A stretch of DNA of 47,511 bases from an uncultured Bacteroidales bacterium. Its GTDB lineage: Bacteria > Bacteroidota > Bacteroidia > Bacteroidales > Bacteroidaceae. The notes beneath the pieces were generated by a model. That model ran no database searches and had not been told where the DNA came from. It saw nothing but the letters and a program-made list of their open reading frames with translations. Location: positions 1 through 47,511 of the forward strand of contig CACWIN010000011.1 in the NCBI GenBank assembly GCA_902760965.1, in the 5' to 3' direction. The translations under genes and the position numbers were made by a program. Positions 8,395 to 26,468 of this stretch are shown one piece after another. Each line of letters begins with the position of its first letter. The first letter of the stretch is position 1.

Positions 8395-9111
8395 TTATCC
8401 CAAGAACTTGCCCCTGTTCTGAAGTCCCAGCAATCCCGACATAAGGAATATAATTCCTGCAACCACCATCATGATACGGTTCTTGAGCAGAATTACGCCC
8501 CAGATAGCGGCATTGATATTCTCCGGCTCCTCATACGGGTTAATCGTTACATCCCATACCTTATTCTCAACAAGCGGAGTACTGCCAAGAATCAGCGCAA
8601 GTATCACCGTAAGTACGGAGAGCACGGCGGCTGCGTTACCGTTGCGGATGAGTGTTGAGTAAAGGAATGCAAGGTTACCGAACAGCATGACCGGAATCAT
8701 AAGCTGTGCCGCCATTACGAACGGTGCCACAGGATAAAGCAAGATTCTGGCCAGAAAGGCGTAAACAACCAGGATAAGGTAAACCTCAACGTATATCATA
8801 AACAGGCGGAACAGCCATACCTTGTACATGTAGTTTGGAATGCCGAACAACAGTTCAAGGATACGATGGTCCGCATCATTCTGGATGCCGAAACATGCAG
8901 GATAAAACACCAGCAGGATACCGGGTATGATAAGCTGGTTGTAAACCATTCCATGACTCAGCTCCGTACCTCTGGATGCTGCGGCAAACATAAGGAAAAA
9001 GAACAGAACCAGTCCTACCAGCAGGAACCATATGAACTTGCCGGCAAAAATGATCCTCATGTTGTACATACACAACTTGCCGAATGATTTTGTTGTCTGT
9101 AATACTGACAT
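8395..9111 (-). CDS. ABC-2-type transporter permease
   Basis: This 238-residue inner-membrane protein has about six hydrophobic helices: around residues 25-42, 62-80, 105-130, 135-155, 160-180 and 213-230. The segment IIPGILLVFYPACFGIQNDADHRILELLFGIPNYMYKVW, described here by position 61-99, has the cytoplasmic elbow pattern of ABC-2 permeases that gate with a separate ATPase. It is the last gene of the 18-kb operon and starts 13 nt after the RND-ABC fusion, so its natural ATPase partner is probably the C-terminal ABC domain of that fusion. The substrate is unknown. Confidence 0.8.
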   Translation of the reverse strand: MSVLQTTKSFGKLCMYNMRIIFAGKFIWFLLVGLVLFFFLMFAAASRGTELSHGMVYNQLIIPGILLVFYPACFGIQNDADHRILELLFGIPNYMYKVWLFRLFMIYVEVYLILVVYAFLARILLYPVAPFVMAAQLMIPVMLFGNLAFLYSTLIRNGNAAAVLSVLTVILALILGSTPLVENKVWDVTINPYEEPENINAAIWGVILLKNRIMMVVAGIIFLMSGLLGLQNRGKFLG

Positions 9112-9124
9112 AGTTCCACTAGAT

Positions 9125-12100
9125 TTATAGGTTCTTTAATAGGCACAGGTATGCATCCTCAAGGTTGGGCTCAGCAGGCTCTGCTCCTGGGAACGGACAT
9201 ACGGGCGATATGTAACGCACCTTGATCTTGTCACCGTCCTGAATATGGTTGGCAATAAGTTTCTCGTCAAGTTCACCCAGACGTGATGAGTCTATATCAA
9301 ACAGCCAAACCTTGTCCTTGGCCAGTTTTACCATCTCGGATGGCAATCCAAAGTACTTGAGCGAACCCTTCTCTATTACAACGACCTGGTTGCATGAACT
9401 GGCTATATCCTCAATGATATGAGTAGAGAAAATAACTATGCGGTCACGGCTCAATTCAACCAACAGGTTACGGAACCTGATGCGTTCCCTTGGATCAAGA
9501 CCGGCAGTAGGCTCGTCAACGACAAGTATTCGCGGCAGGTTAAGCAGAATGAGCGCAATACCTATACGCTGTTTCATACCACCCGAGAATGAACCTATCT
9601 CCGAGTTCCTCAACTCATACATGTGTACGGCAGTAAGCACATATTCCAGTCTTTCCTTACGGATCTTTTCATCGGTTATACCCTTAAGGATGGCCTGATA
9701 ATCCAGGAAATCCCAGGCACTCATAGACTCGTACATACCAAACTCCTGCGGCAGGAATCCAATCAGGCTCTGAAGTTCCTCCCTGTACTTGAGAGTATCC
9801 ATACCATTAATGAATACCGTTCCGTAGCTTTGACGCAGGATACCGGTTACAATTCGCATGAATGTGGACTTACCGGCTCCGTTGGGTCCAAGCAGGCCGA
9901 ACATACCGCTGTGAATCTCAAACGATACGCCACGCAGAGCCTTGAACGGCTTTTTGCGCTTGCCGATTATAGGAATGCTCTTTACAAACACAAACCATGC
10001 ATGTCTAATACCGGCAGTCTCACCTTTAAGACGCTCCACGTTTATGTTGTTTGCATAGAGGTAGTCCGATGTCTTGCTGATGCAGAGACCCAGAATCCAG
10101 ACCACAGCAATGAATACCATGAATCCGGTACTCTCAATGCGGGTGCTAAGGAACAGCATGGCACATACCGGCAATGCCCAATACAGAATCTTCTTTATAA
10201 TAGCCGCTGTCTTTGCGCCTTTCTTTGATTTGTACGAAACATACTCAAGGACGGCCTTAAGGATATTATTGATTCCTGCCAGCGTAATGATGGTCATAAG
10301 AAGTATCCAGAACTCCTTTTCAAAATACCATCCTGCCAGATAACCGGTAAATCCAAACACTACCACCTGCCATAGCAGACTTACAAAATCCTTGGCGTGA
10401 TGGAAAGTGCGTGCAAGTCCCAATCGGCGGCGTATATTCAGTCCGCTCCTCCACTGACGCAGGAACAGGCTGTACCAGTCATATACCTTTACCAGGTTAC
10501 GTACCTCAATGACAATAGGTTCATCGGCCTTTACAATATCCTTACGTGCTATTCGGACGGAGCTCTTTATAAAGTAGGTAATTCCGGGAACTGCAATAGC
10601 CAGGACAATTATGTAAAGCAGTATCTTGAATATTCCGTGAGTGGTGGTAAAGATCAATATCAGGCCCACGCCGTACAATACCGCATGCATGATATGAGTG
10701 TAGCGGCCCAGCTTCTTATACCATGCTCTCATGTTCTCAAACGATATATAGAGCGTAGGAATAAGCAGCAGTGTAAGCACGGCCGAGAAAGCCAGACCAC
10801 CAATAACCGTCAGTGCAAAGGGAGCACCTATTGCGCCTGCATACTCATTGTCACCCATTGCCATAGGAATAAGAGTGACAATAGTTGTGATTGTAGTGAT
10901 ACAGATAGGTCTCAGACGTGAATATCCGCTTGTCATTATTGCCCTCATGCGGCCGTAGCCTCTGCGACGCAGTGTTGATGAGTAGTCAATAAGGATAATA
11001 CCGTTGTTCACCACAACACCAAGCAGAATAAGGAACCCGGTCAGGGTGTTGGCGTTCATAAGGCTGTTGCCCGACAGCAGCAGAGCCAGCAGTGAACCTA
11101 TGGCTGCCAACGGTATTGAGAACAGCAGCACCACAGGTGTGGTAAGTGACTCAAAGGCCGATGCCAGTATCATGAATATGAGTATTATCGATGCCAGTAT
11201 CAGGAACTTGAACTCACTTGTGGAGTCATCACCGCGCTGAACCTCCAGAGCCAGTCCCGAAGGCAGGTTGTAATTGGCAATAATGTCATCAATCTGCTCA
11301 TGATAACCGTCAAGGACATCCTTGGGCAGTTCCTCACTCTGCGAGATGGCATAGGTAACGTTCACCCTACGGTCACGGTTAACGCGTCTTACCTCCGATG
11401 GTCCGCGGCTCAGGCGGATATTTGCCAGTTGCTGCAGTTCGTGGGCTCCGCCGTTTGCATCGGTAACAATTACACGGCGCAGGTCATCCATGGTCTTCTC
11501 CCAGCGTCCGGCTTCCTCCTCTTCTTCGGTAAGGTCATCCATTATGACTATGTCATACTCATCGGTTCCAACCTTAAAGCTGGCTCCGGTGCTGGTTGAA
11601 CGGTTAAGTGACCCAAGAGCAGAGGTTATTGCCTGGTTGGTAATATTGTACGATGCCATAGCCACGGGGTCAAAGGTCAGTTGAACCTCACGACGGCCAC
11701 CGGGATTGTCAACCCTTATGTCACGTACAAAATCCAGCTGCTCCAGATAGTACCTAAGGTTATTGGATACTATACGCATGGTCTCGGTATCGGAACCCTT
11801 GACCACTATCCTCTCGGTGTTGTCACCCACACCCAGCACGCTCATGAAACGGGTCAGCGAACTCAGGCCCGAAGCGTTCTGGTTTCCGCGGGCATAGCCA
11901 GGAGTGACACGGACATCTATCTCATTCTCAAGGGCAAGCTCGTCGCTCAACTGTTCCACCAGTTGACTTATGGTTACACCACCCTTCTTGTTATAACCAT
12001 CCTGAAGAGTCACGGTAATTGAAGCCTGATCCTCCTGAATACGGCTTATTACATCCTTTTTCCATACCAGACTGTCCAGACGCGACTCAAGTGTGGCAGT

Positions 12101-13822
12101 TGCCTCATCGGTCTCATCGATTGTACTGCCGCTGGGCATTGTAATGTTCACATTTATCCTGTCACTGTCTACCTGACGGTTCTGACCGGTATTACGTGAC
12201 AATGCGAATATAAATGCAATAACCAGAACCGCTACCGCTGTACCAATGGTCGGACCGGGTTTTCTCAGGCTGGTCTTGAGCAGTGTTGAATACATCTGCA
12301 GCGGGCGGTCGTGAATGGACATTTTCTGGAAGAACACGCTGTTGCCGCCTCCGCCGCGTTCCATCATAGCTGCCGTTGCCATGGGAATGAATGTCACGGC
12401 TACCATAAGTGAGAATATCAGTGTTGATATTATCGAGAAACCGATATTCCTGCCCAGCAGTTTGATCATAGGCTCATCGGAGAACACAAACGGCAGGAAC
12501 ACCGTTATGGTTGTAAGCGTTGAGGCAATCAGGGCCTTACGCACCTCCTTTACGCCCTGCAGTGCCGCCAGTCGGGGCGGCATTCCCATTGATGCCAGAC
12601 GGTATATGTTTTCCAGCACCACAATACTGCTGTCCAGCAACATACCAATGGCCAGAGCCATACCTATAAGGGTAAGGGTGTTTATGGATATGTTAGCCGC
12701 ATAGAATATGTTGAAAGCCGAAAGTATTGATACCGGTATAGACAGAGCTATAAAGAATACAAGGCTTATGTTGCGCAAAAAGAACCACAATACCAGAATA
12801 GCCAGGATACCGCCCATAAGCGCCAGTTTGACTATCTGCGAAATGTTGTTGCTGATCTGGTCCGCCGAATTGGACTGCACCACCAGCTGAAGGTCCTGAC
12901 TGGCAATCTCCCTGTTAACCTCATCTATACGCTTAAGCGTTCTCTTGGACAGGTTAAGAAGATTCTCACCGGTTCCGTTCACCAGCGAAACCGATATGGC
13001 ATCCATACCGTTCACCCTGCTTATGGTCGTCTCCTCCTTATAGTCAAAGAATACAGTAGCAACGTTCTTAAGGTAAACCGGTCCTTGAGCCACCACCAGA
13101 TTCTCCACTTGTGACACGTCATCGTAATTGGCGTCAAGCTGTACGTAATACTTTTTGTCAGGCTCACTTATATAACCCAGGAATGTACGTTCCTGATTAT
13201 ACTGGTTCAGGGCCTGGCTTATCTGTGAGTTGGAGATATGCAATGCCTGCATGGCCTCCGGATTGGAACGTATCTCAATGGACTTTACGCGACCTCCATA
13301 TACGGTAACGCCTGCTATGCCGTCAATACTCTCCAGACGCGGCACCACCTCCTTGTCAACAATGGCTCTCAGACGGTCAACACCTCCCGATCCGCGCACC
13401 TGCAATGACATGAACTGATTGCTCATGCCGGTAAGGTTGGCCTGCTGGACATTCACTGTAACGTCCGACGGAAAATCGCCCCTTATGGAACTTATCTTCT
13501 CCTGCAGCTTTACAGTGGTCATCTTAAGGTTGGTGCCACTCTTAAAGTCAACCCTTATGGACCCCTGACGGCCCGATGCCGTGGACTCCATGTTTTCCAC
13601 ACCACCTACGGCACTGATGGCACCCTCAAGCGGTATAACCACCTGCTGCTCCATATATGACGGAGTAAGGTCGCTACGGGAATTGGCTGTCACATAAAGC
13701 TGTGGCAATTCCGTATTGGGCAGCAGCTCAACCGGCAGCTGCTTGTACGAGAAATAGCCCAGCAGCGTGAGCGCCACCAGAACCATGCATATAGTTACTC
13801 TTCTGTCAATAAATGACCTCAT
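9125..13822 (-). CDS. RND efflux permease fused to an ABC transporter ATPase
   Basis: The 1565-residue frame combines two transporter classes. Residues ~1-1015 are a full HAE1/AcrB-type RND permease: N-terminal TM1 after MRSFIDRRVT, two large periplasmic loops, and the TM4 motif MALAIGMLLDSSIVVLE. Residues ~1035-1085 add two more helices. At ~1103 comes IEVRNLVKVYD, which looks like the first strand of an ABC domain. About 170 residues with four hydrophobic segments follow, and only then does the ABC core resume: FKALRGVSFEI, Walker A GPNGAGKST (~1310), signature SFSGGMKQR (~1410), Walker B ILVVDEPTAGLD and H-loop STH. The end, EPNLEDAYLCLL, resembles the tail of the free ATPase at 22934-23815. 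The ATG overlaps the stop of the upstream RND gene by 4 nt. TM4 has Asp-Ser where AcrB has Asp-Asp. Confidence 0.9.
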   Translation of the reverse strand: MRSFIDRRVTICMVLVALTLLGYFSYKQLPVELLPNTELPQLYVTANSRSDLTPSYMEQQVVIPLEGAISAVGGVENMESTASGRQGSIRVDFKSGTNLKMTTVKLQEKISSIRGDFPSDVTVNVQQANLTGMSNQFMSLQVRGSGGVDRLRAIVDKEVVPRLESIDGIAGVTVYGGRVKSIEIRSNPEAMQALHISNSQISQALNQYNQERTFLGYISEPDKKYYVQLDANYDDVSQVENLVVAQGPVYLKNVATVFFDYKEETTISRVNGMDAISVSLVNGTGENLLNLSKRTLKRIDEVNREIASQDLQLVVQSNSADQISNNISQIVKLALMGGILAILVLWFFLRNISLVFFIALSIPVSILSAFNIFYAANISINTLTLIGMALAIGMLLDSSIVVLENIYRLASMGMPPRLAALQGVKEVRKALIASTLTTITVFLPFVFSDEPMIKLLGRNIGFSIISTLIFSLMVAVTFIPMATAAMMERGGGGNSVFFQKMSIHDRPLQMYSTLLKTSLRKPGPTIGTAVAVLVIAFIFALSRNTGQNRQVDSDRINVNITMPSGSTIDETDEATATLESRLDSLVWKKDVISRIQEDQASITVTLQDGYNKKGGVTISQLVEQLSDELALENEIDVRVTPGYARGNQNASGLSSLTRFMSVLGVGDNTERIVVKGSDTETMRIVSNNLRYYLEQLDFVRDIRVDNPGGRREVQLTFDPVAMASYNITNQAITSALGSLNRSTSTGASFKVGTDEYDIVIMDDLTEEEEEAGRWEKTMDDLRRVIVTDANGGAHELQQLANIRLSRGPSEVRRVNRDRRVNVTYAISQSEELPKDVLDGYHEQIDDIIANYNLPSGLALEVQRGDDSTSEFKFLILASIILIFMILASAFESLTTPVVLLFSIPLAAIGSLLALLLSGNSLMNANTLTGFLILLGVVVNNGIILIDYSSTLRRRGYGRMRAIMTSGYSRLRPICITTITTIVTLIPMAMGDNEYAGAIGAPFALTVIGGLAFSAVLTLLLIPTLYISFENMRAWYKKLGRYTHIMHAVLYGVGLILIFTTTHGIFKILLYIIVLAIAVPGITYFIKSSVRIARKDIVKADEPIVIEVRNLVKVYDWYSLFLRQWRSGLNIRRRLGLARTFHHAKDFVSLLWQVVVFGFTGYLAGWYFEKEFWILLMTIITLAGINNILKAVLEYVSYKSKKGAKTAAIIKKILYWALPVCAMLFLSTRIESTGFMVFIAVVWILGLCISKTSDYLYANNINVERLKGETAGIRHAWFVFVKSIPIIGKRKKPFKALRGVSFEIHSGMFGLLGPNGAGKSTFMRIVTGILRQSYGTVFINGMDTLKYREELQSLIGFLPQEFGMYESMSAWDFLDYQAILKGITDEKIRKERLEYVLTAVHMYELRNSEIGSFSGGMKQRIGIALILLNLPRILVVDEPTAGLDPRERIRFRNLLVELSRDRIVIFSTHIIEDIASSCNQVVVIEKGSLKYFGLPSEMVKLAKDKVWLFDIDSSRLGELDEKLIANHIQDGDKIKVRYISPVCPFPGAEPAEPNLEDAYLCLLKNL

Positions 13823-16924: not shown

Positions 16925-17995
16925 TTATCTTTGGATCTTTACCTTTGAACCGTCTCTCAGGGTCTCAAAACCACGAACAATCAGCTGATCGTCCCTATCC
17001 AGGCCGCCCAGAACCTCCACGTTGTTCTTTTCTTCAAGTCCCAGTTTTACCTGTTTGGCTCTGGCAATACCCTGGTCTACCACAAACACAAGACGGCGGT
17101 TTCGTTCGTTGCGTACAATATTCTTAGGTATCACGATTGTCTGGGAATGGCTCTCCGTAACAATATCGGCCTTAACGAACATACCCGGTCTGATAAGCAG
17201 GTCCTTGTTGTTGATGACAAGCTTGCCCTTGAATGTACGGGTCTCGGAACTTATGGCAGGTGAGAGTTCGGTAATCTCGCCTATGATAGTGTCTTTGGGC
17301 AGAGTATAATGGGTAATATAAGCTTTCTGACCCACCTGAACCTCGTTTATGGCACTCTCAGGCAGATTTATCTCAAGAAGCATTGAACTGTAGTCCATAA
17401 TTGTCACTACCGATGTACCGCTGTTCAGCTTGGCTTCGGTCGAGAAATGCGGGAGATTCACTATCACGCCGTCAAACGGAGCCCTTATGTTCATCTTTTC
17501 CAGATTCATCTGGGCGTTCTCATAGTCCAGACGTGTGGTCATTATCTTGATATCGGAGTTCTTGACCTCGGTAAGCGTGGCACCTCCCTTGTCATAAAGC
17601 GATTTTGTCTTTGTCTGCTCCTGTTCGGCCAGTTCCAGATTAAGGCGCTTGGTCTCAATTGATATGCCATTCTCATACGACTTGTCTTCAATGCGTACAA
17701 TAATCGCACCTTTCTTTACCTTGTCACCCAGTTTGTAAGGTTTTCCGGTTGCCGGGTTTTTTTGTAGATGATACTTGCCGGCCATCTCGGTTGACAGCTC
17801 AGCCTCGGCATTCGACACAGCAGTGCTGTTAGTCGTAAAGATCCTGCTTACCGAACCGTAGGTAATGTCACTGACCGATACCGGCGTTGGAATTTCGTTA
17901 CGGTTCATAGTGTTCTCTTGTCTGCACCCTGCCATAAGAACGGTGAGCACAGTCAGTGTAAGTGCGCTGATTCCTGATTTCATATACTGTATCAT
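16925..17995 (-). CDS. periplasmic adaptor subunit of the RND efflux system (membrane fusion lipoprotein)
   Basis: A lipoprotein signal with lipobox LMAGC (Cys24, or Cys20 if the second ATG at 17983 is used) anchors this 356-residue protein to the inner membrane. It follows the AcrA/HlyD plan: a lipoyl half-motif around NPATGKPYKLGDKVKKGAI, a short alpha-hairpin (residues ~120-165) with NLELAEQEQTKTKSLYDKG, the second lipoyl half IRAPFDGVI, then beta-barrel and membrane-proximal domains ending VLGGLDRDDQLIVRGFETLR. It would link the RND pump to TolC. The gene starts 17 nt after the TolC-family gene and ends 13 nt before the RND gene. Confidence 0.93.
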   Translation of the reverse strand: MIQYMKSGISALTLTVLTVLMAGCRQENTMNRNEIPTPVSVSDITYGSVSRIFTTNSTAVSNAEAELSTEMAGKYHLQKNPATGKPYKLGDKVKKGAIIVRIEDKSYENGISIETKRLNLELAEQEQTKTKSLYDKGGATLTEVKNSDIKIMTTRLDYENAQMNLEKMNIRAPFDGVIVNLPHFSTEAKLNSGTSVVTIMDYSSMLLEINLPESAINEVQVGQKAYITHYTLPKDTIIGEITELSPAISSETRTFKGKLVINNKDLLIRPGMFVKADIVTESHSQTIVIPKNIVRNERNRRLVFVVDQGIARAKQVKLGLEEKNNVEVLGGLDRDDQLIVRGFETLRDGSKVKIQR

Positions 17996-18012: not shown

Positions 18013-19509
18013 TTATTTGTTATTATTCTGGTCGTATGACATGGGAACCACAGGTGCATCCTTTTCAAAGTCATACAGGGTCAGGATCTTGATATTCAAA
18101 AGCTGGACCTTGTAATTGATTATAGCCTGTGTATATGACATCTTGCTGTTTGACAACTGGTTCTGGAACTGGTTCATCTGCAGTCCGGTCAGTTCGCCGT
18201 TGCGATAACGCTCCTCATTCAGGTCATATGTAAGCTGAGCGTTACGCTGGCTCTGCTCCGCAATCGATATCTGCCCTACCAGATTGTCCAGACTGCGGCA
18301 TGTGCTGCGGACGTTCATCTCTATGCTCTTAAGTTCTTCTTCGGCACTCAGTTCAAACATCTTGCGCTCAATCTCGGCAGCCTTTATGCGGGCTTTTCTT
18401 GCACCCCAGTCAAAAATAGGTACGCTGAACGATACTGCTACACGCGGATTGTTGGTGGGGTTGTCATAAATGTGGGGGAATTCAGCGTCATCGCCCATGA
18501 CACCCAGCGAGAGCGAAATGTTACCGCTAAAGCTGTCATTGTCCTTTACCTGTATCATTGACATTTCCTGCTGTTCCCTTGATATCTGACGCTGTCTGAG
18601 TTCAAGTCTGGATGACATGGCACTCTCAAGGGCCTTGGCCTGGTCCACATATACAGGTTCGGCCTCAATATCGCACACCACTATGATATCCTCCTCGATG
18701 GGAATGCCCAGCGCCTGCTTGAAATTGTCCTTGGCGTTCTCCAGACTCACCCTCTGGTTCTCCAGACTGGAACGTGACTGGGCCAGGTTCAGTTCGGCCT
18801 GATAATATTCGTCCTTTGTAGTAAGGTCAGCTTCGACCTTGTCCTTGATTATATTAAAGTTCCTTTCGGCATTCTCCAGTTCCGATTCGCTTATCTCCAG
18901 GTTCTGCTGTGACATGAACAGGCTGTAAAACTGGCTGGTTATGTTACGCTCCACATTGAGCATCTGGAGTGCATAACTTATGCGGGCGTTCTCATAGTTC
19001 ATCTCTATCTGGCGCATGTTCATCTTGGTCCTGTTATATGTGAATATAGGCTGACTCAAACTCAGATAAAGACGGTTACTGAACGCGCGGTTGCTGTTGG
19101 TGGTACCTCCTATTGACGACTCGTTGTTCTGCCAGGACAGGCTGTTGTTGAGTGACAGGGTTGCATCGGTCCAGATAATGGGCTGCGAAATGCTGAAAGT
19201 ACCCGATGATGACACCGAACGGTTGGTATACCAGTCCGAATAACGGCTGTCAAACTGACGTGACTGGGAGTACGAGAACGGCTCCAGGTTAAGTGAGAAC
19301 CTGGACTTGAGCGATGCCTTCTGGGCTATCAGGTTCTGCTCATACCTCTCCATGCTCAGACGGGAGTTTATCAGATCGGGATTATGCTGGGCACTGTATT
19401 CAAGTGCCTGCTCCATGGTCATGACAATCTGCGCCTTGGCTCCGGTCTCAAAGGCCAATGCCGCTGCAAGCGCAAGTACTGCCGTAGTTACAGTTTTTCT
19501 TTTTTTCAT
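18013..19509 (-). CDS. TolC-family outer membrane efflux protein
   Basis: The 498-residue protein has a cleavable signal peptide (MKKRKTVTTAVLALAAALAF, cut near AKAQ) and the TolC architecture of two repeats rich in long alpha-helices. Each repeat starts with a pattern like MEQALEYSAQHNPDL. Helical segments such as LAQSRSSLENQRVSLENAKD and RNAQLTYDLNEERYRNGE match the periplasmic tunnel. It should form the outer membrane duct for the adaptor and RND pumps encoded directly downstream. It sits between the ABC permease (29-nt gap) and the adaptor gene (17-nt gap), so the ABC and RND parts of the operon are interleaved rather than separate. Confidence 0.93.
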   Translation of the reverse strand: MKKRKTVTTAVLALAAALAFETGAKAQIVMTMEQALEYSAQHNPDLINSRLSMERYEQNLIAQKASLKSRFSLNLEPFSYSQSRQFDSRYSDWYTNRSVSSSGTFSISQPIIWTDATLSLNNSLSWQNNESSIGGTTNSNRAFSNRLYLSLSQPIFTYNRTKMNMRQIEMNYENARISYALQMLNVERNITSQFYSLFMSQQNLEISESELENAERNFNIIKDKVEADLTTKDEYYQAELNLAQSRSSLENQRVSLENAKDNFKQALGIPIEEDIIVVCDIEAEPVYVDQAKALESAMSSRLELRQRQISREQQEMSMIQVKDNDSFSGNISLSLGVMGDDAEFPHIYDNPTNNPRVAVSFSVPIFDWGARKARIKAAEIERKMFELSAEEELKSIEMNVRSTCRSLDNLVGQISIAEQSQRNAQLTYDLNEERYRNGELTGLQMNQFQNQLSNSKMSYTQAIINYKVQLLNIKILTLYDFEKDAPVVPMSYDQNNNK

Positions 19510-19538: not shown

Positions 19539-22500
19539 TTAACGGGAATTATCTCTTTTTACCAACCTAATGGCATCGGCCACAATTATCCTTATGCCGG
19601 ACCTGTTGTTCAGCGTAACCCTTACGGTATCGGCCTCAAAACGGAACGAGCCCAACAGATTCCAGCCCTCGTCGGCACGGAACATGTTCATTGACACATT
19701 GTCGCTCATGTTGAACTGCTCTATCTCAAAGTTATAGTCGTTGGTTACCCTGCGGCCGTTGTTGTTATTGTTATTCCAGTTATTGTTGTTGTTCCACCTG
19801 CGGTTCCGGTTGTTATTGTCATACATATTGGGTGATGCGTAGTAATACACATCATATACGCCGGCAACTGTCAAAGGAACACTCCAGCGTGCATACTGGG
19901 AGCCGTCACCCGGCGATATGAGATATGCCGAACGGATATAATCGCCGTAAAGGTTCTGGTCAGTCACCAGAGTCCACTGACTGTATGTGCGCCAATCGGA
20001 AAAACCTTCATAGATAAACTCGTTTTTCTTTTCCTTGGCCTTGTCTATCCATTTTGACAGATAACCGGTACGGAGCGGACGGGAAAGCGAGAACAGTTCA
20101 CTGTCCTCATTATCTATGATTATCTCGCCCGGGAGAGTGTTGTCTACTCCGCCACGAACCGGATAAATACCTTCGGCGGTAAGTTCGGTACCCTCGTATG
20201 TACTCCAGTCCGAATTGTTCAGGTTTACATCGTGCGGCAGATTTGACGACAGCATGGTGTTTATCCTTATGTAACTGGGAGTATTGAACCAATGGGTGAC
20301 AATCCTGCGTGTCTCATGCGGATTTATGCTCAGTACCATGCTCTTGGGCTTGTCCTCATCACCGGCATTCTCCATCTCATAGAACACGAATTCCACATTG
20401 ATATAGCCCGGGTTGTCCGATATGTTCTCAACGGCAACCTCTGCCTGATAAATCTCGGCCGTATCGGTGGTAACCGTAGTAATGACCGGATTACCTATCT
20501 TGTAGCAGGCCAACCGTGCAGGCTGGTTCCAGGCTTGGATCTTTTCCTTAAGGCTGATTCCCGAATAACTCTGCACCCAATCCAGGATAGAATCAAACGA
20601 GACGTTCTCAAACTCCCGTTCCCTGGTCTTTGCCGATATGGAATCAACCAATGACTCAAAGCCAACCGCCGCCGATACCGGAGCAAAGAAATCCTGGGTC
20701 TTGAGTGCAAGGGCGTTGTCGGCAAGATCCTCCCACTCCGGGTCAGACATAATGCGGTCAAAATCATATTTGCCCATCAGGATAAGGGCTTTCTCGTCCT
20801 CGGACAAACCGTTCATTCTCCTCATCCAGTCATTTCCTAGATTCTGGTTGGTGCCAGTCATTGACTCCACCATCCTGTTGGCCATAGGCCAGTCCGATGA
20901 ATAGACATTGTATCTGAAATTGTAGAATAACGGACGGTAATAGTATGGATTGTCCACCTGGGTCATTGTCCACTGTCCGTTCCTGTTGCTGCCGCTCATA
21001 TTGCCGGACTGCATCATGAAAGAGACGGAATTGTTCAGGATATTAACAAGTATCTCCTTTTCGGACATGTTGTTGTTGCGGCGGTTCCAGTTGTTACGGC
21101 CACTCCACGAACGTTTCATGTTGCGGAACTGGAATACGTTCATGTCAAAGCCCCTCTCGTGTACCAACGCCATCTCGGGCTGAAGCTGTTCATAGACCGA
21201 TGTCCATACACGTTTGTACGAGGTGAACTGGGCAGGCACCTCAACAAACGAGAAACGTTTGAACGGATACTCCATGTCGGCCTGATACTCCATATTCCTG
21301 CGCCTGTCACGGATAATATACGGAACAGTATCGCGTATTGAGTCAAACACCTCAAACTGATCGTCCCAACTGCCAAGTTCCCATACCGTATACATTGTTG
21401 AGTCAACGGTTATTGACTTGGGAGTGTAGTCGCCTATTATAAGCGATACCGACGGCAGTGACGACTCCGGCTTGAAAGTATACTGGGTGGAGTCGGCATT
21501 TGCCGTGCACAGGCCCTGTGAAATGGGAGTAAGTCCCGGATTCGGGGTTACATTCACCACAAAATCAGTAAAGTATGACAGTTGCCATTCGGGACTCCTG
21601 TCACTGAATGCCACACCTGGGCGCGGATACCAATAGCTCTCAGGAGTAAGCAGGGTATAATCCTTATCCTGGAACATATAACGCTTTCCTACATTCAGCA
21701 TGGATAGAGCCTTTGTGTTTTCAAGCATCTTGTCTTTCGAAATATCCAGGAAGCATATGCGGTCATCGGCCTCTCCTCCATACTCCATTATTATGTTTAC
21801 CGGTTCGCCGGCACCCAATGTGTTGTCAAAAGAGAGAATAATAAGGTGCATAAGCCTTTCGTACTTCATGCTGTGACCTGCAGCGCTTATACTGCCCACA
21901 TTGAATCCGGGATTAAGCGTGAACACCAGTTGTGACGCCTCCTGTTTGGGACGGACTTTCAAATCGGCCCTTATGCTCAGGGAATCTCCTTCCTGCGAAA
22001 TGTAAAGCATGCAGGAGTCCACCACCGCGCCACCTACGTTAACGTACCTGTTGTCCAGTTCAACCATATCGGCCCTGTATCTTTCATCAACCTTATACAG
22101 GCGGACATGCCTGTACCCGGCAAACAGACCTCCCAACAGGAACACCACAGCGGCTATTCGCCATGGCAACAGGCTGTACCTGGAGTTGGCAAGTCTATGG
22201 AACAGCGACACATCGGTAAGTATCAGGCCTATGCCAAGCAACAGATAGCACATCCTGTGATTGATCAGCCTGGACAAGCCGCTGAAACCCGTTATTACCG
22301 ATTTAAGCATAGGCAGGTTAAAACCTATATAGTCAAACAGGTAATAATACACGTTGTCTATATAGAACAGCGTTACGCCTATGTATGCCAACAGGATAAC
22401 CATGGTAATGGCCTGGTTGTTGAGCAACAGCATAAGGGTCGTTGACAGACCTACTATGAATACCAGCGTAGGAACACTCAGCAACAGGAAATACCATATA

Positions 22501-22937
22501 TAGCTCAGATAGTCCAGGTCAAAGCCGTATTTGATAAGGCTCATCACCAATGCTATCAACGCCACCACAAAGTCTAGAATAAAGAACACCTTCAGCGTTG
22601 CCCACATCTTGCCTATAAGGTACTCGGCATTGCTAAGCGGTCTGGTATAGAAAACCTCCGACGTATCCAGCTGCTTGTCACGCTTCAGGTACTCCGATGC
22701 CAGGAACACCGATACTACCGCCTGCCCTACATTCATTACCAGCATGAACATGTAAGGTATGACGGACCTGTTCACCATCTGCGGCTGCTGATTTGGCGAA
22801 AGAATATATATGGAGCCCAGAATGACCGAGGCAAGCAGTGCAAGAAAAGCAAATACCTTAAAGAACCAGCCTCGGACAAGCAGTTTTGTCTCGTATCTGG
22901 AGACTATTATTATGTTAGTTATTCCCAATCCCATCAA
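19539..22937 (-). CDS. giant ABC permease with M1-peptidase-like and golvesin-like regions
   Basis: The 1132-residue protein starts with an ABC-2-type membrane domain (residues ~1-290, about eight helices; it includes EYLKRDKQLDTSEVFYTRPL). Residues ~300-620 resemble the periplasmic part of permease/M1-aminopeptidase fusions known in Bacteroidota: a beta-rich domain, ESYWYPRPGVAFSDRSPEW, NPGLTPISQGL and a segment ending LQPEMALVHERG. I find no HExxH zinc motif, so a peptidase activity is unlikely. An Asn/Arg-rich stretch follows near residues 600-625. The C-terminal ~150 residues (ARWSVPLTVAGVYDVYYYAS ... GSFRFEADTVRVTLNN) look like the golvesin C-terminal-like fold, which is beta-sandwich and often extracytoplasmic. 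Another Asn-rich stretch interrupts it. The start overlaps the ATPase gene by 4 nt. Confidence 0.75.
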   Translation of the reverse strand: MMGLGITNIIIVSRYETKLLVRGWFFKVFAFLALLASVILGSIYILSPNQQPQMVNRSVIPYMFMLVMNVGQAVVSVFLASEYLKRDKQLDTSEVFYTRPLSNAEYLIGKMWATLKVFFILDFVVALIALVMSLIKYGFDLDYLSYIWYFLLLSVPTLVFIVGLSTTLMLLLNNQAITMVILLAYIGVTLFYIDNVYYYLFDYIGFNLPMLKSVITGFSGLSRLINHRMCYLLLGIGLILTDVSLFHRLANSRYSLLPWRIAAVVFLLGGLFAGYRHVRLYKVDERYRADMVELDNRYVNVGGAVVDSCMLYISQEGDSLSIRADLKVRPKQEASQLVFTLNPGFNVGSISAAGHSMKYERLMHLIILSFDNTLGAGEPVNIIMEYGGEADDRICFLDISKDKMLENTKALSMLNVGKRYMFQDKDYTLLTPESYWYPRPGVAFSDRSPEWQLSYFTDFVVNVTPNPGLTPISQGLCTANADSTQYTFKPESSLPSVSLIIGDYTPKSITVDSTMYTVWELGSWDDQFEVFDSIRDTVPYIIRDRRRNMEYQADMEYPFKRFSFVEVPAQFTSYKRVWTSVYEQLQPEMALVHERGFDMNVFQFRNMKRSWSGRNNWNRRNNNMSEKEILVNILNNSVSFMMQSGNMSGSNRNGQWTMTQVDNPYYYRPLFYNFRYNVYSSDWPMANRMVESMTGTNQNLGNDWMRRMNGLSEDEKALILMGKYDFDRIMSDPEWEDLADNALALKTQDFFAPVSAAVGFESLVDSISAKTREREFENVSFDSILDWVQSYSGISLKEKIQAWNQPARLACYKIGNPVITTVTTDTAEIYQAEVAVENISDNPGYINVEFVFYEMENAGDEDKPKSMVLSINPHETRRIVTHWFNTPSYIRINTMLSSNLPHDVNLNNSDWSTYEGTELTAEGIYPVRGGVDNTLPGEIIIDNEDSELFSLSRPLRTGYLSKWIDKAKEKKNEFIYEGFSDWRTYSQWTLVTDQNLYGDYIRSAYLISPGDGSQYARWSVPLTVAGVYDVYYYASPNMYDNNNRNRRWNNNNNWNNNNNNGRRVTNDYNFEIEQFNMSDNVSMNMFRADEGWNLLGSFRFEADTVRVTLNNRSGIRIIVADAIRLVKRDNSR

Positions 22938-23815
22938 TCCTTATCCTTAACTTCCATAAAATAAACATAGGCATGCTCCAGGTTTGGCGGATAGCTCACC
23001 GCATCATAACCAGGCATACTCTTTGCCACCACCTGAATATCCCATCCCAGTCCATGAGGTATGGTTGAGATAACGGCATATTTCTGATTTATCTCGGCAT
23101 ACTGCTCGTTGGTAACCTTAAGACGCCATACGTTGCCCTCGGTCTCCTTGAGCATACCTGCCGGTGACCCTCGGAACATGACCTGTCCCTGATTGAGCAT
23201 AGCCATCTCGGTACATGAACTGGAAATGTCACCTACTATATGGGTTGACAGAATTATTGTGGTATCCTTTGAACTGGCTTCACTTAGCAGGTTGCGGAAC
23301 CTGATACGCTCCTCCGGGTCCAGTCCGGTGGTAGGCTCGTCAACCACCAGGACTTTTGGCTTGTGGATAAGAGCCTGGGCTATACCCAGACGTCTTTTCA
23401 TACCGCCCGACAGGTTCTGTGCATAACGGTCACGCACTTCGTAAAGGCCCACCTGTTCCAGCATAGAATCAACCGCCTTGCCACGTTCCGATGAGTTTGT
23501 CATGCCCGACAGAGCCGCTGCATACTCCAGGAACTCCCTGACCTTATATTTGGCAAAGAACCTGAAATCCTGCGGCAGATAACCCAGAATACGTCGTACT
23601 TCCTTACGCTGCGTACGTATATCGTAACCGCATACGTCAATCTGACCTTCGGACGGTTCCATAAGGGTTACCAGAATACGCATAAGAGTGGACTTTCCGG
23701 CTCCGTTGGGGCCCAAAAGGCCAAACATACCGGAAGGTATTTCCAGGTTTATATCGGTTAACGCTCTCTTACCGTTAGGGTAATAATGACTTAAGCCTTT
23801 TATACTTATTGACAT
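22934..23815 (-). CDS. ABC transporter ATP-binding protein
   Basis: This 293-residue ATPase has every NBD motif: Walker A GPNGAGKST (residues 35-43), Q-loop YLPQDFRFF, signature NLSGGMKRR, Walker B VLVVDEPTTGLD, and H-loop STH. The C-terminal ~75 residues form an extra domain ending PPNLEHAYVYFM. Its ATG sits 7 nt after the GH9 stop, and its 3' end overlaps the giant permease by 4 nt, so it is the likely engine for that permease. It is very similar to the ABC part of the RND fusion: both have GMFGLLGPNGAGKST and DEPTxGLDPxERIRFRNLL, which suggests duplication within the operon. Confidence 0.93.
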   Translation of the reverse strand: MSISIKGLSHYYPNGKRALTDINLEIPSGMFGLLGPNGAGKSTLMRILVTLMEPSEGQIDVCGYDIRTQRKEVRRILGYLPQDFRFFAKYKVREFLEYAAALSGMTNSSERGKAVDSMLEQVGLYEVRDRYAQNLSGGMKRRLGIAQALIHKPKVLVVDEPTTGLDPEERIRFRNLLSEASSKDTTIILSTHIVGDISSSCTEMAMLNQGQVMFRGSPAGMLKETEGNVWRLKVTNEQYAEINQKYAVISTIPHGLGWDIQVVAKSMPGYDAVSYPPNLEHAYVYFMEVKDKD

Positions 23816-23822
23816 GAATTCA

Positions 23823-26468
23823 TTATTTGTTTATTGCAGCCGCAATTTCTTCGGCTCCAATGGATAGGGTTACATATGAGGGAACAGTACGGGTACAGCA
23901 CTCGTTCTCGCCCCATAGGAACGGATAATCATCCTTATGCTCCAGCAGGTCCGGTTGCAACAGGACAAGTCCGGGAGCAATACCGCCGGGAATGAATGTA
24001 TGGTCTGCACGGTTGTTGCCGTATGCAACCTTTTTGGTATTCACTCCCACGGCAGTCACAAACGATACGTTCGAGTACGGATGGTTGCCGTAAATAAAAT
24101 TAAGACCGGAAAGGACCAGTTCCGGATCAATCAGGTCCGGGTAGTAACGCCATACCATATAGTTATTCTGGGCCCAGCTTATTACGCGCTCGCTGCCACC
24201 CCATGTGCCGCCGGCTACCGGTACGCCATAGGGAGTGGATTCGGCTGTACGCTTGGCATCCTCAACAAATACGGGTATTACCTCGCGGAGCTGTGCCTTG
24301 AAATCATCGTCCATATACGGAAGCAGTGAAAGTGCAGTAGTGATATTCACACGCGGAGCACGCATTGCGCTACCACCGCCTGTACGGTTATCCTCGGCCC
24401 CCTGGGGAGCAGTTTTTGCCATCTCGATCTGACGCATCACACCGGGCATAAAGATATCCTTGTATTTCTGTTCACCGGTCAGGAGCCACAACTGAATGGC
24501 TGCACTTGAACGGTCGCCGCCCATGCCGCGATTGTTTCTCATAACGTTGGCGTTGGCATTGGCGTTGGCCTGTTGGTTACGGGCAGGCTGACGGGCCTGG
24601 AACTCATCCATCTCCTTCCACAGCTTAAGAGCATTCTTTTTGCAACGCTCGGCAGTCTCGGGTATGTACGGAGCCAGTACGCGGGCCGCATGTGCCAGGG
24701 CGGCACAGACATTTACGTTACCCATGGGGTTACCGGCATTATTGGTAAATGCAAAACGGTCGTCAAGTGTACCTGACCGGTTGCCACGAACCTCATAGGG
24801 TTTAAGACTCGGGTCATATATATAACCGTCAGTTATAGTCACGGCATCGCCCAGATGATGGTACTGGTGCATGTTTCCCTGAACTATACCTCCTGCTATG
24901 AATCCCAGGTTCTCAATCTGGGCGCAAAGGTTAAGAGCGCCATGTTCAACCTGCTGGATGACATCGGGCAGACCGTCCGGACGGTGAATGTCCACAAACT
25001 GGGTCTTCTGGTCAATGAAGGTCTCGTCACGCTCCGGACGGAGTACATCCCAAACCTCGGCCAACTGATTGGTCAGGCCAATAACGGTACCGGACTGAAT
25101 GTCAAAGTCACCGGCATCATACCATGCACCTACAGCCAGACCGGGTATGTGCTCATATGGTTTGTACTTGGTACCCGTGGTATTGCCCATACGGTAACCG
25201 TCATGCTGCTGATAGTTGGTTGGAGCCTGGATGGCATCGTCCATGTGAGAGCGTCCGTGCCATACTCGGTATGCCTCGTTAACCAGCATGTGGTCCATCT
25301 GGACGGGCAGCCAAACATCCATTGTATTATGCCACTTGCCCTCATATACGTTCTTGTTTATGGGGAACGGATTGGTCTTAACGCCGTTATACTCTATATA
25401 ATAGGTACCCGGCTCATTTACTGCACTAAAATCGCACTGGGCATAGTTGTATCGGTTATAGAATACTCCCCACTCCTTTACGGAAGGTTCAAGTGCCAGA
25501 GTATGACTGCCATCGGCATTTACACGGAACACCTTGGCTTTAGGATAAACCTTGTCATTACGGTCCAGTTCAATCACAGCCACCTTCTTTTGGGCAGGTG
25601 TATAACCTATCTGCGAGAATCCTATATTGGGTTCACGAATCCAACTTGCATCGGCAGTTGGCTCAACATACCACTCCAGCACTGTTCCGGTCTTACCTGC
25701 CGGAAGGAATGAACGGACTACAAAAGTACCGTTCTGTGACAGATTGCGGCCGTCATACAGATTGATTTCGGAATCGGACTTAAATAGTACACGCAGGGAT
25801 TCATCCTCGGGGGCCACCACAAGAGTGTGTCCTTGGGATATTGGTTTTGGTACTATGAATTCGTTACGTCCGCGGTCATCAAATGTTGACAGGCCCCAGA
25901 ACTGGTCAATCTTTTCGGATTTGGGACGCATTTCGGTGTCACTCGAAGGATAGCGCGGGAATATCTCGCTCTGACCATCCATAAGATATGTCTTACCAAA
26001 ATAGGTAGCGGGGAAAAACTCCATGTTCAGACCTGCCTTACCAACAAGATTGGCCGGCAACGGCTGTTCCAGAATTACCTGCAAGCGTATTCCCTTTCCC
26101 TCTTGCATGGCCTTTATGTCATATCTGAAATTAAAGTCCGGATAATAGAACTTGCAGTTTATCACCCCTCCAAGTGTATCAATGGTACGCTCAGTAAGCG
26201 ATGCATAGATATCCCACTGTTCAGGAGTGTTCATAAGACGCACGGCTCCACCGGTTGCTATACGCACTCCACGCTGCACGATCTCAATTCCTGCAGTCTT
26301 TTCATCGCAAAAAACACCTTGATAATTGTTTGAGTAAACAAGCACATTAACGCCACGGGTCTCATAATAACCAAGATCATTGATCTCAAGTTTTCCGGGT
26401 TCCTGATTAGTTGAACAGGAAACAAATGCACATAACAATGCGGCGACAATTGGCAGTAATCGTTTCAT
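23823..26468 (-). CDS. glycoside hydrolase family 9 lipoprotein
   Basis: The 881-residue protein has a lipoprotein-type signal (Cys18 in AFVSCS). Residues ~20-270 are a beta-rich region that I do not recognise. An Ig-like cellulase N-terminal domain follows at ~275-365 (PNIGFSQIGYTPAQKKVAVI). The (alpha/alpha)6 catalytic domain is GH9: AVGAWYDAGDFDIQSG (~445-460) holds the paired aspartates used as base, NFIYGNHPYSNVSFVTAVG matches the conserved C-terminal substrate region, and FLWGENE (~854) could supply the acid. GH9 enzymes cleave beta-1,4-glucans and related beta-glycans; the actual substrate is unknown. An in-frame ANANANAN insertion lies near residue 637. It is the first gene of the efflux operon. 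Confidence 0.85.
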   Translation of the reverse strand: MKRLLPIVAALLCAFVSCSTNQEPGKLEINDLGYYETRGVNVLVYSNNYQGVFCDEKTAGIEIVQRGVRIATGGAVRLMNTPEQWDIYASLTERTIDTLGGVINCKFYYPDFNFRYDIKAMQEGKGIRLQVILEQPLPANLVGKAGLNMEFFPATYFGKTYLMDGQSEIFPRYPSSDTEMRPKSEKIDQFWGLSTFDDRGRNEFIVPKPISQGHTLVVAPEDESLRVLFKSDSEINLYDGRNLSQNGTFVVRSFLPAGKTGTVLEWYVEPTADASWIREPNIGFSQIGYTPAQKKVAVIELDRNDKVYPKAKVFRVNADGSHTLALEPSVKEWGVFYNRYNYAQCDFSAVNEPGTYYIEYNGVKTNPFPINKNVYEGKWHNTMDVWLPVQMDHMLVNEAYRVWHGRSHMDDAIQAPTNYQQHDGYRMGNTTGTKYKPYEHIPGLAVGAWYDAGDFDIQSGTVIGLTNQLAEVWDVLRPERDETFIDQKTQFVDIHRPDGLPDVIQQVEHGALNLCAQIENLGFIAGGIVQGNMHQYHHLGDAVTITDGYIYDPSLKPYEVRGNRSGTLDDRFAFTNNAGNPMGNVNVCAALAHAARVLAPYIPETAERCKKNALKLWKEMDEFQARQPARNQQANANANANVMRNNRGMGGDRSSAAIQLWLLTGEQKYKDIFMPGVMRQIEMAKTAPQGAEDNRTGGGSAMRAPRVNITTALSLLPYMDDDFKAQLREVIPVFVEDAKRTAESTPYGVPVAGGTWGGSERVISWAQNNYMVWRYYPDLIDPELVLSGLNFIYGNHPYSNVSFVTAVGVNTKKVAYGNNRADHTFIPGGIAPGLVLLQPDLLEHKDDYPFLWGENECCTRTVPSYVTLSIGAEEIAAAINK
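24546..24569 (-). repeat. in-frame GCCAAC hexamer repeat in the GH9 gene
   Basis: Four hexamers lie in a row (GTTGGC, GTTGGC, ATTGGC, GTTGGC on the plus strand), which on the coding strand are GCCAAC units encoding ANANANAN. The same hexamer makes up the intergenic inverted repeat at 29590-29679. Confidence 0.75.

Follow-up and report, generated by a model that had tools for sequence, protein, structure and literature searches.

Can an RND permease and an ABC ATPase work as one protein, and if so, which transport step does the ATPase drive? Export across two membranes is usually described as the work of separate pumps: according to one account, some carry substrate over the inner membrane and RND systems then expel it from the periplasm (PMC4338810). 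A conserved protein in which an ABC motor is welded to an RND pump, encoded beside other transport parts, would be a natural system in which to ask whether substrate passes directly from one to the other, and whether an RND cycle can be driven or gated by ATP. One such protein is encoded in the window analysed here, a whole metagenome-assembled Bacteroidales contig of 47,511 bp from a bin of 2.32 Mb, 93 contigs, and 81% completeness. Because the window comes from a bin of this kind, conservation weighs more than the contig itself. Many Bacteroidota encode this giant RND-ABC membrane protein beside the same partner genes; this speaks for a two-stage export machine that has not been described, and against a sequencing error.

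Domain architecture and catalytic residues

RND2::ABC (P0001) is a genuine, conserved single polypeptide frame (Table 1). It begins with an RND permease and two predicted membrane helices; the opening strand and A-loop of an ABC nucleotide-binding domain (NBD) come next, followed by a membrane insert with some four helices and the remainder of the ATPase. The preliminary description had proposed an uninterrupted 1565-codon frame and left out its strand; ORF analysis bears the frame out, with an ATG start and a single terminal stop. Its RND part, earlier placed at residues ~1-1015, matches the Pfam family ACR_tran over the full length expected of RND permeases, from residue 2 to 1028 (547.9 bits, E 5e-164, cut-off 28), and scores 476.4 bits with the NCBIfam model RND_permease_2 (NF033617), below the curated cut-off of 1250. 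ABC_tran matches residues 1296-1440 (89 bits, E 6e-25). The complete set of ABC motifs claimed earlier, with Walker A near 1310 and the signature near 1410, is present (Walker A, 1312-1320; SGGMKQR signature, 1413-1419; Walker B and its Glu, 1432-1437; H-loop His1468). The motifs are not contiguous, however, with the A-loop ~190 residues upstream of Walker A.

Table 1. Features of the seven-gene cluster and segments of the fusion protein (positions in the window).
Feature	Position	Strand	Basis or remark
PERM4 (P0004), 238-aa ABC-2-like permease, probable partner of the fused ATPase	8395..9111	minus	weak Pfam matches, co-occurrence
RND2::ABC fusion (P0001), 1565 aa	9125..13822	minus	ORF, Pfam, one-frame conservation in relatives
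Remaining ABC ATPase, residues 1289-1565, including C-terminal LED motif	9125..9958	minus	Pfam, motifs
Membrane insert inside the ATPase, residues 1119-1288, ~four predicted TM helices	9959..10468	minus	hydropathy
Putative displaced first strand and A-loop, residues 1101-1118, I-x-V-x-N-L-V-K-V-Y1114	10469..10522	minus	A-loop profile, conservation
Linker, residues 1031-1100, two predicted TM helices	10523..10732	minus	hydropathy
RND permease part, residues 1-1030	10733..13822	minus	ACR_tran 2-1028
RND1, unfused RND permease, 1030 aa	13819..16911	minus	Pfam
MFP, periplasmic adaptor	16925..17995	minus	HlyD_D23; RND_mfp 183.3 vs cut-off 94.9
TolC-like outer-membrane channel	18013..19509	minus	OEP, E 5e-47
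P2 (P0002): ABC-2-like membrane domain, degenerate M1-peptidase-like stretch (seen in relatives), golvesin C-terminal domain	19539..22937	minus	likely ATG start 22934
ABC5 (P0005): separate ABC ATPase, A-loop in normal place	22934..23815	minus	Pfam, motifs

ABC5 has the normal arrangement, in which a strand and A-loop with the consensus I-S-I-E-N-L-N-K-I-Y immediately precede Walker A. A 13-column score matrix derived from 39 ABC5 proteins was slid along 50 fusion proteins, two of which are contig fragments. The best window lies at the same place in 49 of them and reads (I/L)-x-I-x-N-L-V-K-I-Y; in the exception (L195), another window scores above the shared site (6.5 versus 5.0). The gap between this window and GLLGP is 180-242 residues in 47 of the 49, mostly 189-198, and 126 in the other two, versus 18 in ABC5. 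At the normal place, the matrix gives the fusions scores of -16 to -34. In P0001 the element corresponds to residues 1103-1115, and its Tyr1114 is invariant (50/50). Nine of the 50 best scores, including the 7.8 of P0001, do not exceed the maximum of 10.3 among 50 shuffled proteins (mean 1.6), so the split is argued from the family-wide agreement of place and not from P0001 by itself. When P0005 is aligned with a profile of the fused C-terminus, the match starts at P0005 residue 16, beyond the P0005 A-loop, and the fusion has no contiguous ATPase domain with the A-loop just before Walker A. As judged from these alignments, the ATPase appears to be split: about four predicted membrane helices stand between Walker A and the first strand with its A-loop, which lie ~190 residues earlier. 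The displaced element would then complete the NBD fold.

The additional membrane segments earlier noticed at the join are recovered as six hydropathy peaks in the family average (1047-1065, 1068-1086, 1149-1167, 1170-1188, 1208-1226, and 1232-1250). Two precede the A-loop, and four fall within the ~170 residues between the A-loop element and the NBD core. Among 50 homologues, the linker has two predicted helices in 48 and one in two, while the insert has four in 38, three in nine, and one, two, and five in one each. Two loci of a single genus (L212 and L213; f132 g248) carry a natural minimal variant in which the insert is ~70 residues shorter (gap of 126 versus ~193) and shows two peaks in one and one in the other. 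Loop charges mostly fit the predicted topology. Counted per 100 residues, Lys+Arg reach 21.7-22.6 in the segment with the A-loop, in the middle loop, and in the segment that leads into the NBD core. Of the three turns predicted to be periplasmic, two have 7.0 and 3.5; the third has 13.2, versus 12.3 in the predicted cytoplasmic stretch after TM12, and charge does not part all loops. The two and four helices were also considered as a known transmembrane domain. This was rejected, as Pfam families matched the insert in at most 3 of 48 proteins (FlaC_arch, best E 0.014), a PDB search with the insert gave no match, and alignment with the PERM4 profile covered a single column. Among the papers listed in a search of the open-access literature, none gave an account of such a fusion or of a split ATPase with a membrane bundle behind its A-loop; the fusion may already be catalogued, as an unstudied domain architecture, in subscription papers or architecture databases.

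Both ATPases of the cluster retain their catalytic residues. The A-loop Tyr, Walker A Lys, Q-loop Gln1359, SGGMKQR, Walker B Asp1436/Glu1437, and H-loop His1468 are each invariant across the 50 aligned fusions. All 39 ABC5 proteins have Walker A, LPQ, signature, STHI, and DEPTxGLD; 33 match a stricter Walker B pattern, and the other six are read as ordinary variants of it. Degenerate sites are frequent in heterodimeric ABC exporters, and neither the fused NBD nor ABC5 contains one. The fused NBD scores best with GldA (172.8 versus a cut-off of 402.6) and drrA (166.7 versus 312.45), and all of its scores lie below curated cut-offs; RbbA and NodI rank lower, with several other kinds of ABC protein in between. 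GldA/DrrA-type ATPases normally serve ABC-2 permeases. In a tree of NBDs, the fused domains form one clade (support 0.72) and ABC5 another (1.0), in which L039 and L042 are represented by their ABC5-type genes. The two clades are joined with a support of 0.13, and descent of the fused NBD from a duplicated ABC5 is possible but unsupported. PADLOC defence models match only the ATPase parts of P0001 and P0005, which is read as generic ATPase similarity, and none matches P0002, P0004, or P0006.

The RND half departs from the proton relay of the HAE-1 pump AcrB, whose residues Asp407, Asp408, and Lys940 are taken from a published account (PMC8277102). When aligned with AcrB, the fusion in the window has Asp397 of TM4 in place of Asp407, Ser398 at the Asp408 position, and Asn939 at the Lys940 position, and it lacks the complete relay. 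The Asp407 equivalent is kept in 49 of 49 fusions, with one further sequence gapped there; the Asp408 position is occupied by Asn (40), Ser (5), Thr (3), or Cys (1), and the Lys940 position by Asn in all 50. RND1 has Asp-Asn in TM4 (49/49) and Asn (47) or Ser (2) at the Lys940 position. Two other RND proteins of the same genome (L003 and L004) keep Asp-Asp and Lys. The altered relay is common to both subunits of the cluster but is not specific to the fusion, because the second Asp and the Lys are also missing from the unfused RND proteins L006 and, as far as it was aligned, L007. The L006 and L007 permease genes lie near each other on contig C33 of the window's genome.

Distribution and conservation of the join

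With P0001 as the query, the fusion is found in 25 of 36 genomes of the same genus at E <= 1e-100. It is entire in one frame of 1570-1595 codons in 23 of these and in pieces in two (G010 and G026). One copy in G010 begins at a contig end (C116), and a second (C144, L248) is split over several frames, and so is its neighbouring TolC; poor sequence, strain mixture, and a decaying duplicate are alternative explanations for this second cluster. Other families of the order are also positive, with identities of, for example, 61% (G059) and 44% (G043).

A profile of the join (A2; residues 1035-1325, 291 positions) matches 52 of 393 sampled genomes of the order, representing 33 of 207 genera. The frame measures 1515-1640 codons in 45 of the 52, and the seven shorter frames (G565, G058, G517, G700, G682, G684, and G704) all run off contig ends. 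Within an even sample of the phylum (395 genomes), 70 genomes match the profile. Six match most or all of it: the window's own genome, G124, G218, G407, and, from another class, G176 and G405. Among the matches listed, the other 64 align only from about position 190 onward, within the NBD part of the profile, and most of these frames are as long as a typical ABC gene. A 1432-codon frame in G404 was rejected as a fusion, since long frames overlap one another there on both strands and it does not resemble a gene. The order of G176 contains the fusion in 4 of 146 genomes. A contig scan with two NBD patterns found the whole fusion, among the matches listed, in a further Bacteroidales assembly (L037, JAITWJ010000058.1), while the stretch retrieved for L039 (CALDOI010000195.1) has the first five cluster genes and stops before the fusion.

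Occurrence is patchy. Eleven of the 36 congeners lack the fusion, two of which are 96-97% complete, and the join profile was negative in five of five genomes listed from other genera of the same family. A plasmid search gave no match to the join. No version with separate genes was seen. Five P2-positive genomes gave no match to the junction (G050, G564, G609, G614, and G698), and in all of them the cluster is cut off by a contig end. The contigs of G564, G609, and G698 (L233, L234, and L236) stop directly after MFP and before RND1, which hides the fusion from join searches.

Every segment, the join included, is under purifying selection. In pairwise codon comparisons with 11 genomes of the same genus, dN/dS is 0.03-0.07 for RND, 0.05-0.18 for the linker, 0.06-0.13 for the insert, and 0.02-0.05 for the NBD, values that are rough because synonymous sites approach saturation in some pairs. 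The 18-codon A-loop element has zero amino-acid changes in 10 of the 11 comparisons.

These results decide between the two origins that the preliminary description had weighed, a simple loss of a stop codon between two genes and a settled architecture. The metagenomic source of the contig is what speaks for an artefact, whether a lost stop, a misassembly, or programmed read-through, and the chance of one is nonetheless negligible: the same join occurs in 52 order genomes, in another class, and in L037, and selection acts on all of its segments. Conservation rules out stop-codon loss or assembly error as far as sequence can tell, and the settled architecture stands, with frame, length, catalytic residues, and neighbours kept in 33 of 207 genera. 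The same description had named a stop between the parts, or a lack of homologues with the join, as evidence against it; among the homologues examined, the join was shared and just one broken extra copy, that of G010, was seen.

The seven-gene cluster

The fusion is the sixth of seven genes on the minus strand, in the order ABC5 / P2 / TolC / MFP / RND1 / RND2::ABC / PERM4. This exact order occurs in 39 of 49 fusion loci, and in a 40th (L205) with one further P2-like gene on the upstream side; locus or contig ends truncate the remaining nine. Median intergenic gaps in the cluster are 11-26 nt, and the RND1 stop overlaps the fusion start (ATGA). Adaptor and TolC genes are present in the operon, as for HAE-1 pumps. 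Directly upstream of ABC5 lies a GH9-type glycosidase gene (23823-26468, minus; CelD_N, Glyco_hydro_9), which is also seen in the congeneric loci L034 and L036 and is unlabelled in the loci of other families.

PERM4 profile matches occur in 52 of 393 order genomes, the same 52 that contain the fusion; the match in G749 is a contig-end fragment, and that in G527 lies on a different contig from the fusion. PERM4 is found downstream of the fusion in the 47 loci that contain the two genes; the gap is no more than 100 nt in 41 of them and never exceeds 878 nt. Its Pfam matches are all weak: ABC2_membrane_3 in 5 of 48 proteins (best 3e-5), ABC2_membrane_2 in 2, and Acyl_transf_3 in 6 (best 3.4e-4), the last of which is taken as membrane-helix similarity. 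The window's own PERM4 has no Pfam match. PERM4 and the P2 membrane domain were rejected as duplicates of each other, since comparison of their profiles was not significant (E 0.27).

P2 profile matches occur in 54 of 393 order genomes, comprising 49 of the 52 fusion genomes and five with clusters that end at contig ends. In the three fusion genomes without P2 (G684, G704, and G749), the contig ends before it. Among eight P2 relatives scanned, the N-terminus is ABC-2-like in four (E <= 0.01, under the curated cut-off), an M1-like stretch is found in five (best 1.3e-6), and the golvesin C-terminal domain is found in all eight, as well as in P0002. HExxH is absent from all 41 P2 proteins, so the peptidase is probably inactive. 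P2-like proteins or pieces also occur without other cluster genes in the retrieved stretch (L237, L238, and L239, with several in G605; L240 in G700; L241 in G617; L242 in G517; L243 in G712). In an assembly from Pyrinomonadaceae, a family of Acidobacteriota, an ABC5-like ATPase adjoins a 621-codon frame with weak P2 similarity (L040, 344-3250; 46 bits). No RND gene is labelled in that locus, which is possibly an RND-free version of the system.

Coupling of the ATPase and alternative readings

The preliminary description saw a conflict of stoichiometry and energy in joining a proton-driven RND trimer to an ATP-driven ABC dimer. The puzzle is real, and it has at least two ordinary solutions, an ATPase that serves PERM4 and an RND heterotrimer. 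Since the fused NBD scores best with GldA and DrrA and an ABC-2-like gene lies downstream, the fused ATP engine more probably serves PERM4, and a second, unfused RND gene allows for a heterotrimer. We propose, with a probability of about 0.5, that the fused ATPase drives PERM4 while tethered to a heteromeric RND pump, forming a two-step relay from the inner membrane to the outside.

According to this relay model, the fusion protein would be the second subunit (RND2) of an RND1 + RND2 pump, like MdtB/MdtC, that works with a single adaptor and a single TolC. Helices of the linker and of the insert would anchor the ATPase in the membrane on either side. With two RND2 subunits in the trimer, the fused NBD could pair with a second copy of itself; with one RND2 per trimer, it would pair with ABC5, and P2 with PERM4. 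Both stoichiometries are compatible with the data. The fused NBD would drive PERM4, perhaps together with P2, and this ABC step would lift or flip an amphiphilic substrate to the periplasmic side, at the entrance of the RND pump. The RND trimer would then take over the amphiphile and send it through MFP and TolC to the outside. By holding the two pumps side by side, the fusion may allow the substrate to be passed over without loss into the periplasm.

Other readings couple the ATPase differently. The NBD may power or gate the RND cycle itself, replacing or adding to proton flow, as suggested by its covalent link to the RND part and by the lack of Asp408 and Lys940 equivalents in both RND subunits, whereas L003 and L004 keep Asp-Asp and Lys. 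We consider this a live rival but an unlikely one: the conserved Asp407 equivalent means that a proton path may remain, unfused L006 (and L007 as aligned) share the second-Asp and Lys losses, and the NBD is of the ABC-2-serving kind with an ABC-2-like gene next downstream. A single covalent envelope machine is doubtful to a similar degree; here the insert would pass each ATP cycle into both the RND trimer and the ABC-2 permease, with ATP used besides or instead of protons, and each substrate molecule would travel in a single processive pass from the inner leaflet to the exterior.

Somewhat less likely still is mechanotransmission as in MacB and FtsEX, in which ATP hydrolysis in the NBD would pull on membrane helices, gating either the RND/MFP/TolC channel or the periplasmic part of P2, and PERM4 would move no substrate. 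The helices are inserted just behind the A-loop, where nucleotide binding could move them, and P2 has a large extracytoplasmic part; yet no MacB- or FtsX-type domain was found in the proteins scanned, and P2 and, weakly, PERM4 resemble ABC-2 transport domains. The fusion could also be a mere tether between two independent exporters with different substrates, joined for co-expression or co-localisation only. Each half looks complete by itself, but the fixed order of the seven genes, the finding that neither the fusion nor PERM4 was detected in the absence of the other in 393 genomes, and the presence of membrane helices between A-loop and NBD core, which exceed the needs of a tether, make this improbable.

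The relay model combines traits of several known systems. MdtABC is described as active in the form of a B2C heterotrimer with divided roles (PMC4338810). The cluster resembles the E. coli MdtABC-TolC system in encoding two different RND permeases and one adaptor in one operon. On alignment, MdtB has Asp-Asp in TM4 and Lys-Lys-Asn in TM10, while the fusion does not keep the complete AcrB-type relay. MdtABC is not known to have an ABC ATPase fused to it or encoded with it. The best matches of the fused NBD and the adjoining ABC-2-like permeases recall the DrrAB, NodIJ, and GldAF-type exporters, from which the fused NBD differs in scoring under their curated cut-offs; known members have separate genes and contiguous NBDs. 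The cluster shares with MacAB-TolC the prospect of an ABC-driven step that feeds an adaptor and TolC. MacB has an N-terminal NBD, four TM helices, and a periplasmic domain, and works without an RND protein, whereas the NBD of the fusion is C-terminal and apparently split, and the cluster has two RND proteins. In rhizobia, NodIJ and NolGHI likewise bring an ABC-2 exporter together with an RND pump; both have been proposed to act on the same lipo-oligosaccharide, as separate, unfused complexes.
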